This document shows, piece by piece, positions 3,475 through 6,873 of a DNA stretch of 64,000 bases. The stretch spans positions 288,672 to 352,671 of the forward strand of contig CP030759.1 in the NCBI GenBank assembly GCA_003290465.1, given 5' to 3'. The stretch's first letter is position 1, and every line of letters begins with the position of its first letter. The notes below the pieces were generated by a model. The model saw only the letters and a list, made by a program, of their open reading frames with translations. It ran no database searches and had not been told where the DNA came from. The stretch is from Candidatus Sumerlaea chitinivorans. GTDB taxonomy: Bacteria > Sumerlaeota > Sumerlaeia > Sumerlaeales > Sumerlaeaceae. The translations under genes and the position numbers were made by a program.

Positions 3475-4588
3475 GCAGGTGCACCGAGTTCTTCATCTGT
3501 CCACGGAGAAGGGGTGGCGTGGGGGAGAACGACAAGTTAAATTGCTAACAAATGGTTTGCTGAGCCGCGGAATTGAGATCCGCGTCGCATGCCCACCCGA
3601 TAGCGAGCTGTTTCATGATCGGGCAGAAGCTAACGTTGCGATCCCGTGGAGGGTGCGCAGTGAATTTGACCCGGTTGCCGTTGCAAACCTGATTTCCCAT
3701 GTCCGCAGGTTTCGTCCTCAGCTTATTCATGCGCACACCTCGCATGCTCATTCCATTGCATGGCTCGCAGCGCGTTTTGTAGGCCTGCCAGTTGTTGTCT
3801 CACGTCGCGTGGATTTTCCTATAGCCGGCAACTGGGCAGCACGCTGGAAGTATCTCTCGTCCTCGGTTTGGTTCATCGCCATTTCCGAAGGGGTTCGCAA
3901 CGTCCTGCTCGGCGGGGGAGTTGATCCGCACCGAGTCACAGTTGTCCATAGTGGGGTCGACCTGGACCGTTATCCATTCAGAAGTGGAGGGCGCGACCAT
4001 GCGGAGGCAGCCAAGTGGGGGGTGCAACCTCACGAGTACTTGCTGATCAACGTTGCGGCACTCACCGACCACAAGGATCAGTCAACGCTTTTGCGAGCTG
4101 CTGCGGAGTTGCGCCGGATTCGAGACGATTGGCGGCTCGTCATTGCAGGCGAAGGCGAACTGCGAGCCCACCTTGAGCGGCTTGTTGCAGAACTCGAACT
4201 GGGTTCGAAGGTTTGCTTTGCAGGGTACGTTCGCAATCTTGCTCCCCTCTACAGGGCGGCGGATTTGTTTGTCCTGTCCTCACACCTTGAAGGTCTGTGC
4301 ACCTCGTTATTGGATGCGATGTTGGCGGGTGTGCCGGTGATTGCGACCCGCACGGGCGGTGTGCCTGAAGTTGTTGAAGACGGAAGAACTGGGCGCTTGG
4401 TCCCACCACGGGATCCGGTCGTGCTGGCTCAGACGATTGCGGAGCTGCTTGACCGTCGTGAATTGCGACACACCTACGCACACAATGCTCGCGAGAAAGT
4501 GGAGCGGGAGTTTTCGGCTGAGCAAATGGTCGAAGGGACCCTGTGCTTTTACGCGCACGTTTTGGAGCAGTGGAAAAGTTCGCCGTGA
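3467..4588 (+). CDS. Family 4 glycosyltransferase (WaaG-like)
   Basis: A retaining GT-B glycosyltransferase of 373 residues, likely extending the LPS core after the heptosyltransferase. Visible features are the N-terminal fold VLHLSTEKGWRGGERQVKLL, HAHTSHAHSIAWLAARF, the phosphate-contact segment VVHSGVDLDRYPF, the strand NVAALTDHKDQSTLLRAA, and the donor-binding EGLCTSLLDAMLAGVPVIA with GGVPEVVEDGRTG. The ATG at 3467 is preferred over 3452 because GAGGG lies 8 bases upstream; either way the gene overlaps the stop of the heptosyltransferase gene. The sugar donor cannot be deduced. It is the last gene of the core operon, and a new regulatory region (leader peptide and attenuator) follows. Confidence 0.88.
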   Translation: MGEQVHRVLHLSTEKGWRGGERQVKLLTNGLLSRGIEIRVACPPDSELFHDRAEANVAIPWRVRSEFDPVAVANLISHVRRFRPQLIHAHTSHAHSIAWLAARFVGLPVVVSRRVDFPIAGNWAARWKYLSSSVWFIAISEGVRNVLLGGGVDPHRVTVVHSGVDLDRYPFRSGGRDHAEAAKWGVQPHEYLLINVAALTDHKDQSTLLRAAAELRRIRDDWRLVIAGEGELRAHLERLVAELELGSKVCFAGYVRNLAPLYRAADLFVLSSHLEGLCTSLLDAMLAGVPVIATRTGGVPEVVEDGRTGRLVPPRDPVVLAQTIAELLDRRELRHTYAHNAREKVEREFSAEQMVEGTLCFYAHVLEQWKSSP

Positions 4589-4669
4589 TCGTGCAAGAAG
4601 ATAAAAAAACAGTTGCATGAATTCGGCGCTTGTGATGTATACGTGAATACAATGATTCCCGCAAACTAC

Positions 4670-4738
4670 ATGCGCACAATTGTGAACCGCCTCGCTGCGG
4701 TAGTAGTAGCGCTTGTAGTCGTAGGCCTTGCGCCGTAG
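4670..4738 (+). CDS. Valine/leucine-rich leader peptide of the ilvBN operon (IvbL-like)
   Basis: A 22-codon reading frame lies between the GT4 gene and ilvB and encodes a peptide ending AAVVVALVVVGLAP. Seven codons are valine (five GTA), three leucine and one isoleucine, so half of the peptide is branched-chain amino acids, the end products of the downstream pathway. The composition and ending resemble the E. coli ilvB leader peptide IvbL, which also has a run of valines and ends in AP. An in-frame ATG at 4652 would lengthen it to 28 codons; no strong ribosome-binding site distinguishes them. TTGCAT at 4613-4618 followed after 17 bases by TGTATA is a weak candidate promoter. The strong terminator 30 bases after the stop makes an attenuation role very likely. 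Confidence 0.72.
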   Translation: MRTIVNRLAAVVVALVVVGLAP

Positions 4739-4766
4739 CGGGGATCGAGTCTGACTGATTGATTGA

Positions 4767-4807
4767 CGCCCCCGCCGGCGCAGAGGTCGGCGGGGGCGAT
4801 TCCTTTT
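4767..4807 (+). terminator. Intrinsic attenuator terminator upstream of ilvB
   Basis: A perfect 11-bp GC stem is formed by 4767-4777 and 4788-4798, with a 10-nt loop and a T-rich tail (ATTCCTTTT). It sits between the leader-peptide stop (4738) and the ilvB start (4863). Bases 4738-4743 (GCGGGG), which begin inside the leader stop codon, can pair with 4770-4775 (CCCCGC) in the left arm. This gives a plausible competing antiterminator when a ribosome stalls at the valine codons. The stem is seen directly; the switching mechanism is inferred by analogy with ilv and leu attenuators. Confidence 0.8.
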
Positions 4808-4862
4808 CCCCCTTCCCACCTCCTGCTCCGTCGGGTCGGCAGTCGAAAGGAGAAAACAACCG

Positions 4863-6554
4863 ATGGAAGCAACTGGAGCACAAATCATCACTATACTCCT
4901 CGAGCGTCATGGCATCCGGTATATCCCGGGAATACCGGGAGGGGCGAACTTGCCGCTCTACGATGCACTTCGTGCGAGCTCGATTCAGCACATTCTCGCA
5001 CGACATGAGCAGGGCGGTGGGTTCATCGCTCAAGGAATTGCCCGTTCCACGGGCCGGACTGCTGTGTGTTTCGCCACCTCGGGACCCGGAGCGACGAACC
5101 TGCTGACAGCAATTGCCGACGCTAAGCTCGATTCCGTGCCTCTTGTGGCGATCACTGGCCAAGTGCCATTGCGCATGGTCGGGACGGACGCTTTTCAGGA
5201 GATCGACACATACGGGCTCACCATTCCAATCTCGAAGCACAATTACTTGGCACGGTCCGCTGAGGAACTTCTCGAGATTCTACCGGAGGCTTTCCGCATT
5301 GCGGCGAGTGGGCGGCCGGGGCCCGTCGTGATTGACGTCCCCAAAGACGTTCAGAACCAAAAAGTGCAATTTGACCGATTGCCAGATCCACTCCCGCTGG
5401 AGCCCCTTCCCGTGCCCACACCAGAAGCAATCCGGGCTGCGTTGGAGCTCATCGAGCGTGCGCGACGTCCGGTGATTCTCATCGGAGCTGGCGTCGTGAA
5501 CGCACAAGCGGGGCCAGCAGTCATCCAACTTGCTGAGAAGCTCTCCGCGCCCATGGCCTCCACGCTTCACGGGTTGGGAGCGGTTCCGTCCAATCATCCA
5601 GCGATGCTTGGAATGGTCGGGATGCATGGAGCAAAGTCTACCAACCTCATTTTGCATGAGGCGGACCTGTTGATTGCGCTCGGCATGCGCTTTGATGACC
5701 GCGCTACAGGGAAAGCGGAGGAGTTCTGTCCGCAGGCAGCAATTCTCCATGTGGACATCGACCGGAGTGAACTCGGCAAAATAAAAACCCCAAGCGTTGC
5801 GGTGCAAGCTGACGTTGGCATGTTTCTGAAAGCGGTCCTCGACGAACTGCCACCTGCTGGATGTCGGGCCGAGTGGTTGGCACGGGTGGAGCACCTGCGA
5901 GACCAGTATCCGTTGGATACCCCGGGAGCAAATGACCCGCTTCAACCCTACGGCGCTGTCCTACAGACTGCACGCATTCTGGAAAAGGATCCTCCTATCG
6001 TCGTCACCGACGTCGGCCAGCATCAGATGTGGACGGCACAAGCTTTCCCCTTCTCGTTCAACCGTCAGTGGCTGACCTCGGGCGGACTCGGCACGATGGG
6101 TTTTGGGTTGCCCGCCGCGATCGGCGCTGCCTTGGCCAATCCGCATAAGACGGTGGTGTGTTTCAGTGGCGACGGTAGCTTGCTGATGAACATTCAGGAA
6201 TTTGCCACGGCCGCCGAGCTGGGCGTGAACGTCAAGGTGATGCTCATGAACAATGCTCACCTTGGCCTCGTGCGGCAGCAGCAGGAATTGTTTTATGGTG
6301 GGCGCTACCATGCTTCACGCTTCGAGGCCCAGCCCGATTTCGTCGCAATTGCGCGTGCGTTTGGCGTGGCTGGCTACGACCTCGGTTCGACGAGCGATCC
6401 GCTGGATCTCTTGGAGCAGGCGCTGCTTGCAGAGGGGCCATGCTTGGTGAACGTGCCAATTCCAGAGACGATGAACGTGCTGCCCATGGTGCCACCGGGC
6501 GCTCCTAACACCCAAATGATCGAAGGAGGAACTTATGCATCCGCAAGTCGCTGA
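4863..6554 (+). CDS. ilvB: Acetolactate synthase large (catalytic) subunit
   Basis: A ThDP-dependent enzyme that joins two pyruvates to acetolactate (or pyruvate and 2-oxobutyrate to acetohydroxybutyrate), the first common step of valine, leucine and isoleucine synthesis. The 563-residue product has the catalytic glutamate in RHEQGGGFIAQG (about residue 48), the PYR-domain GGANLPLYDAL, the middle domain with HGLGAVPSNHPAMLGMVG, and the ThDP/Mg motif GDGSLLMNIQEFATAAELG (about 436-454). Its length is normal for the family. The ATG is preceded by AAAGGAG at a 10-base distance. ilvN overlaps its end by 20 bases. The leader peptide and terminator upstream indicate control by charged tRNA for branched-chain amino acids. 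The two-subunit arrangement and the attenuator argue for the biosynthetic enzyme rather than a catabolic AlsS. Confidence 0.96.
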   Translation: MEATGAQIITILLERHGIRYIPGIPGGANLPLYDALRASSIQHILARHEQGGGFIAQGIARSTGRTAVCFATSGPGATNLLTAIADAKLDSVPLVAITGQVPLRMVGTDAFQEIDTYGLTIPISKHNYLARSAEELLEILPEAFRIAASGRPGPVVIDVPKDVQNQKVQFDRLPDPLPLEPLPVPTPEAIRAALELIERARRPVILIGAGVVNAQAGPAVIQLAEKLSAPMASTLHGLGAVPSNHPAMLGMVGMHGAKSTNLILHEADLLIALGMRFDDRATGKAEEFCPQAAILHVDIDRSELGKIKTPSVAVQADVGMFLKAVLDELPPAGCRAEWLARVEHLRDQYPLDTPGANDPLQPYGAVLQTARILEKDPPIVVTDVGQHQMWTAQAFPFSFNRQWLTSGGLGTMGFGLPAAIGAALANPHKTVVCFSGDGSLLMNIQEFATAAELGVNVKVMLMNNAHLGLVRQQQELFYGGRYHASRFEAQPDFVAIARAFGVAGYDLGSTSDPLDLLEQALLAEGPCLVNVPIPETMNVLPMVPPGAPNTQMIEGGTYASASR

Positions 6555-6873
6555 AAACAACCTGCATCCGGCGGAGGAAATCATTCGAGATGCACGCCGC
6601 CCAGTGCTTCGCCTCATTGTGCGGAATCATCCTGGTGTCATGTCGCATATTTGTGGGCTCTTTGCCCGGCGAGCATTCAACGTGGAGGCGATCCTGTGCC
6701 TACCGATTGGCGACGGATCGCGTAGCGTGATCCTCCTGCTCGTGGATGAGGACGAACGACTGGATCAGCTCATTCGTCAGCTCGAGAAGCTTCACGATGT
6801 CCTCGAAATTCATCGTGAATCTGATGGCCATGAACCTTTTGAGGCGATGGCACGCTATCTTGAGTCGCACTGA
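6535..6873 (+). CDS. ilvN: Acetolactate synthase small (regulatory) subunit, short form
   Basis: The regulatory subunit that activates IlvB and mediates end-product feedback inhibition. The 112-residue protein carries one ACT domain (LRLIVRNHPGVMSHICGLFA, then RRAFNVEAILCLPIGDG, residues about 23-95). It lacks the C-terminal domain found in longer IlvH-type subunits, so it resembles the short E. coli IlvN. A very strong ribosome-binding site (GAAGGAGGAACTT) precedes the ATG, and the start lies 20 bases inside the end of ilvB, so the two are co-transcribed and probably produced in a fixed ratio. Asparagine in the RNHPGVM segment sits where valine contacts are made in known ACT domains, so valine feedback is plausible but not shown. 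Confidence 0.93.
   Translation: MHPQVAENNLHPAEEIIRDARRPVLRLIVRNHPGVMSHICGLFARRAFNVEAILCLPIGDGSRSVILLLVDEDERLDQLIRQLEKLHDVLEIHRESDGHEPFEAMARYLESH

Follow-up and report, generated by a model that had tools for sequence, protein, structure and literature searches.

The DNA upstream of the ilvBN operon of Candidatus Sumerlaea chitinivorans BY40, a deep thermal aquifer bacterium of the phylum Sumerlaeota (PMC8092238), holds a short valine-rich frame followed by a GC-rich terminator, raising the question of whether the two form an attenuator of the kind that controls ilvBN in E. coli and, if so, how it came to lie in such a genome. The initial annotation had read the region as ivbL-ilvBN-like attenuation in a genome that did not look proteobacterial, and had left open whether the control was very old or had arisen twice. 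The genome is indeed outside the Proteobacteria, and comparison gives the attenuation reading strong support, with a conserved leader and a covarying terminator and antiterminator. Very probably the element attenuates transcription through the translating ribosome in the manner of ivbL-ilvBN, is homologous to its E. coli counterpart and travels with the AHAS I operon, the two having spread mainly by horizontal transfer. The window analysed, 64,000 nucleotides in length, spans positions 288672-352671 of a 3,289,105-base genome in a single contig; coordinates are window positions unless a contig is given, and the operon and the elements of its leader region lie on the forward strand.

The ilvBN operon and its leader frame

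The attenuator lies directly 5′ of AHAS I ilvB-ilvN. The large subunit gene ilvB (4863-6554, 563 amino acids) scores above the cut-off of NCBIfam TIGR00118, with its best profile match, PRK08155, reaching 842.6 bits, below its cut-off of 870, while the small subunit gene ilvN (6535-6873) passes the AHAS I small subunit model (NCBIfam PRK08178/NF006036, 133.8 bits against a cut-off of 128) and so assigns the operon to the AHAS I type. IlvB falls within the AHAS I clade with support of 100/100. BY40 has a second acetolactate synthase large subunit that is not AHAS I (L039, G000:C1:243089-244807) and has no Val-rich leader; the second small subunit gene is distant from it, at C1:944247.

The leader frame comprises 28 codons (MIPANYMRTIVNRLAAVVVALVVVGLAP, then the stop; 4652-4738). 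A frame of 22 codons at 4670-4738 (MRTIVNRLAAVVVALVVVGLAP, then the stop) with seven Val codons, five of them GTA, had been annotated initially; frame and codons are confirmed, but translation is more likely to start at ATG 4652 (MIPANYMRTIV...) than at ATG 4670, because both syntenic relatives keep the former. In the alignment of the three syntenic genomes (A3), L033 and L034 retain ATG 4652 together with the CCCGC that follows it, with ATG 4670 replaced by CATA in both. The Val codons lie at 4682-4684, 4700-4708 and 4715-4723, and GUA accounts for five of the seven as against 111 of 1253 (9%) in the long open frames of the window. When 4589-4862 was shuffled 5000 times with dinucleotides preserved, a comparable frame, defined as a forward-strand frame with at least six Val in 14 codons near a stop, arose in only four cases. 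GUA likewise predominates in the Sumerlaeaceae leaders L033-L036 (17 of 27 Val codons, counted by eye), and this rare Val codon may sharpen the response in these leaders.

No Shine-Dalgarno sequence precedes ATG 4652. TTGCAT (4613-4618) and TATACG (4638-4643), separated by a 19-nt spacer, make a putative promoter in which TTGCAT is invariant across the three syntenic genomes, although the candidate is a weak one since a sigma-70 consensus scan called no promoter, this pair included. A transcript starting near 4650 would have almost no 5′ UTR, and a near-leaderless transcript is suspected.

Alternative helices and their covariation

The intrinsic terminator (regions 3:4, 4767-4798) is a hairpin of 13 bp, two more than initially annotated, with a 6-nt loop and a free energy of -32.6 kcal/mol, followed by a moderate U-run (ATTCCTTTTC) that is imperfect after the stem (AUUCCUUUUC). 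Its left arm and loop form region 3 (4767-4783), within which CCCCGC (4770-4775) and the contiguous CGGCGC on its 3′ side (4776-4781) make up the 3′ arm of the antiterminator. The 5′ arm, region 2 (UUGCGCCG, 4728-4746), was identified from folds and covariation and supplies GCGCCG (4730-4735, the Ala-Pro codons) and GCGGGG (4738-4743), with the UA of the stop codon bulged between them. The competition of GCGGGG with the terminator for 4770-4775 had been correctly placed in the initial annotation as a six-base pairing, an extent that the GCGCCG/CGGCGC pairing doubles. This complementarity also explains why the Sumerlaea and E. coli leaders, whose likeness in a VVV run and an AP ending had been noted from the start, both end in Ala-Pro, such that the peptide ending common to distant leaders is accounted for by RNA pairing. 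A search of Rfam with 4400-5000 returned matches at chance level only and no leader family that fits.

The leader region as a whole (4650-4812) folds with z = -4.75. Folding of 4717-4784, which mimics a ribosome stalled in the Val codons with the right terminator arm not yet made, gave exactly the antiterminator helix at -29.1 kcal/mol, while with a ribosome on the stop the terminator alone was left, at -32.6 kcal/mol. Without a ribosome and with the RNA made up to 4750, the start region (region 1, GAUUCCCGC, 4654-4662) pairs with 4738-4746 as a protector helix in the fold of 4650-4750. These predicted states agree with an attenuation model. Once the entire terminator is included, it invariably gives the fold of lowest energy, so that the antiterminator would have to win kinetically, as in known attenuators.

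On this model, when Val-tRNA is ample the ribosome would reach the stop and cover region 2 (GCGCCGUAGCGGGG), leaving region 3 to pair with region 4 such that transcription would end before ilvB. When Val-tRNA is scarce the ribosome would stall in the two GUA-rich Val runs (4700-4723), and the free region 2 would pair with region 3 (CCCCGCCGGCGC), allowing RNA polymerase to read through into ilvBN. A leader that is not translated would be held by the protector helix, with the start region paired to region 2 and termination favoured.

Both the terminator and the antiterminator covary across 40 divergent sequences (alignment A2, in which E. coli is row L077). Under controls that ignore relatedness, the terminator has 93.5% of cells paired and 36 two-sided changes, a count reached in 0 of 500 shuffles and at most 8 in slid registers. 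The antiterminator has 79.9% of cells paired as against 38-52% in slid registers, and by the same controls, again blind to relatedness, its 29 two-sided changes compare with a shuffled mean of 14 (0 of 500 shuffles) and at most 17 in slid registers. The antiterminator pair 15:83, which is C-G in 17, U-A in 11 and G-C in 3 sequences, is the most telling, since its partner in column 83 falls within the loop of the terminator and so escapes constraint by that stem. In an alignment-free comparison, which likewise ignores relatedness, cognate region 2:3 duplexes averaged -24.7 kcal/mol as against -22.1 kcal/mol when partners were swapped (0 of 20000 permutations). Three leaders in which the frame extends beyond the Ala-Pro codons (L057, L065 and L174) were excluded from the pair counts; in these the stop comes later and the GC terminator is retained, and the position of the leader stop codon seems evolvable. 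For the protector, cognate complementarity across 40 leaders exceeded permuted pairings (0 of 20000) but was only moderate relative to shuffles (mean z -1.13); the helix is predicted in the window and in near relatives and is weak or absent in several members, including L037, L038 and E. coli.

Distribution, descent and rival explanations

Among 40 Sumerlaeota genomes, seven encode an AHAS I-like IlvN, and in all seven AHAS I operons a Val-rich leader ending in AP precedes a GC terminator. A strict core pattern occurs once in the BY40 genome, 5′ of ilvB, with no match to the reversed control, and exactly once in six of the seven AHAS I genomes of the phylum, the reversed control never matching. 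A scan of one genome per species gave at least 80 further AHAS I loci in gamma-, beta- and alphaproteobacteria, Desulfovibrio, Desulfogranum, Polyangiaceae UTPRO1, Latescibacterota, Planctomycetaceae and Hydrogenedentota; four phylum searches contributed extra genomes, and many of the records are metagenome bins. Among the matches listed, 100 AHAS I loci have 200 bases or more of upstream DNA, and 98 of these carry a Val/Leu/Ile-rich leader by a simple score; leader-bearing loci span at least eight major lineages including Planctomycetota, Hydrogenedentota and Latescibacterota. The comparison of ilvB upstream regions proposed in the initial annotation has thus borne out both a conserved short Val/Leu/Ile frame and the covariation of the two stems. 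A strict terminator finder missed 17 of the leaders, many with bulged stems, with a clear terminator present in those displayed.

Only L087 and L102 among the 100 loci lacked a leader by the simple score. At L087 the alignment reaches just the C-terminal part of IlvB, while at L102 ilvB lies close behind another gene, which by eye resembles a regulator with a rhodanese domain; this suggests that the L102 cassette lost its attenuator upon insertion. An enterobacterial-type ivbL-ilvBN (L119, leader ...PAAVVVVRVVVVVGNAP) in a record titled Chryseobacterium sp. 18061 is likely to reflect contamination or a mixed assembly.

In a tree with AHAS II, AHAS III and further large subunits at the root, AHAS I forms one clade (support 100/100), the deepest split of which separates Sumerlaeota G003/G036 and part of the Hydrogenedentota from the remainder. 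E. coli, Serratia, Providencia and Pectobacterium make up a small branch within a group dominated by Rhodocyclales. The Sumerlaeota copies occupy two places in the tree, a one-clade tree being rejected (AU p 7e-57), and the Hydrogenedentota copies are also separated (one-clade tree rejected, p 3e-5). UTPRO1, of another phylum, is nested in the Sumerlaeaceae group. AHAS I is rare and scattered, occurring in 2/64, 3/294, 12/68, 8/247 and 7/40 genomes of the sampled phyla, the last being Sumerlaeota. Leaders occur to either side of the root, so their origin probably dates back to that of AHAS I; joint horizontal transfer of operon and attenuator is the simplest reading and the most likely.

The choice as first posed, very old or arisen twice, is not supported in that form: the elements of E. 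coli and Sumerlaea share the core GCGCCGUAR...CCCCGCCGGCGC and are homologous, which excludes a double origin, and the tree and patchy distribution favour horizontal spread with the operon rather than plain vertical descent. An independent origin in Sumerlaeota might draw on the ease with which short Val-rich frames arise and on the Ile/Val/Leu leaders known 5′ of actinobacterial ilvB (PMC1262725), but the downstream enzyme groups in a single AHAS I clade with that of E. coli, and in A2 the core of leader stop and terminator (GCGCCGUAR...ACCCCGCCGGCGC) can be aligned with the E. coli row nucleotide by nucleotide; with the aligned core running across intermediate lineages, convergence was ruled out and we give it next to no credence. 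Vertical inheritance of a homologous leader from an ancient shared ancestor, followed by wholesale loss across most lineages, is a better contender though still unlikely. The basal position of Sumerlaeota and Hydrogenedentota copies and the occurrence of the leader on both sides of the root would suit it, and patchiness could also reflect ancient presence and many losses, but the scarcity of AHAS I in the sampled phyla, the rejection of both one-clade trees and the placement of UTPRO1 all speak against it.

Two further explanations accept the sequence elements and dispute what they do. The terminator, lying between ilvB and a glycosyltransferase gene that ends at 4588, could simply serve that upstream gene constitutively, with the frame an incidental coding remnant, but the neighbouring upstream gene varies among genomes while leader and terminator persist, the antiterminator covaries and the Val codons are conserved, making this explanation extremely improbable. 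Action of the leader only on translation, on mRNA stability or via Rho has been argued for some actinobacterial leaders, and mutation of the candidate regulatory codons of S. coelicolor ilvB had no effect (PMC1262725); the existence here of an intrinsic terminator and a covarying antiterminator, together with the response of E. coli ivbL reporters, which are repressed by Val and Leu (PMC11187965), renders such action quite improbable at this locus.

For transcription attenuation carried by horizontal transfer, the direction of movement can be proposed from the tree, with the E. coli copy as a late branch. According to a published model, AHAS II was duplicated inside the gamma-proteobacteria to give AHAS I, Desulfovibrio and one firmicute being the exceptions (PMC5727371); the present tree and distribution do not fit such an origin. 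On balance we favour a self-regulating cassette of AHAS I ilvBN and Val attenuator, born outside the gamma-proteobacteria, that moved through many phyla by horizontal transfer without losing its control and came late to the enterobacteria from a Rhodocyclales-like donor, which would make the textbook E. coli ivbL an import.

Comparison with known attenuators

The classical trp, his, leu and thr attenuators combine competing 1:2, 2:3 and 3:4 helices with the sensing of a codon run. The Sumerlaea element has a codon run and predicted competing helices of this kind, the 1:2 helix being a candidate, and differs from them in the amino acid sensed and in sequence. The ilvB leaders of Corynebacterium, Mycobacterium and Streptomyces are similar in having a short Ile/Val/Leu frame and a terminator 5′ of ilvB (PMC1262725, PMC10272879, PMC11857589), although by their descriptions the frame overlaps the terminator hairpin and the downstream genes form ilvBNC or ilvBHC operons. 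A survey in 2010 stated that leader-peptide attenuation had not been demonstrated beyond the Proteobacteria and Actinobacteria, and itself contributed a his leader from Firmicutes (PMC2965389). Our literature search, which most subscription papers lay outside, found no earlier report of an ivbL-type attenuator in Sumerlaeota, and no priority is claimed. The ivbL kind can now be placed, with covariation support, in Sumerlaeota, Hydrogenedentota, Planctomycetota and Latescibacterota, its roughly 100 natural variants allowing the evolution and movement of attenuators to be tested directly.

Anatomy, covariation and homology make the Sumerlaea element a genuine member of the ivbL-ilvBN kind. In E. 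coli, changed occupancy of the stop codon in a strain without RF3 raises ivbL attenuation (PMC5373646). Both systems have a Val-rich leader that closes on a VVV run and GNAP in E. coli or GLAP in Sumerlaea, a UAG stop codon, a GCGCCG there that pairs with CGGCGC in the left arm of the terminator, and an AHAS I operon downstream. The Sumerlaea leader differs in its length (28 codons rather than 32), in being GUA-rich and in lacking the VVVVRVVVVV block, while its antiterminator gains 6 bp from the GCGGGG that overlaps and follows the stop, and it has a predicted helix between start and stop regions and a suspected near-leaderless transcript.
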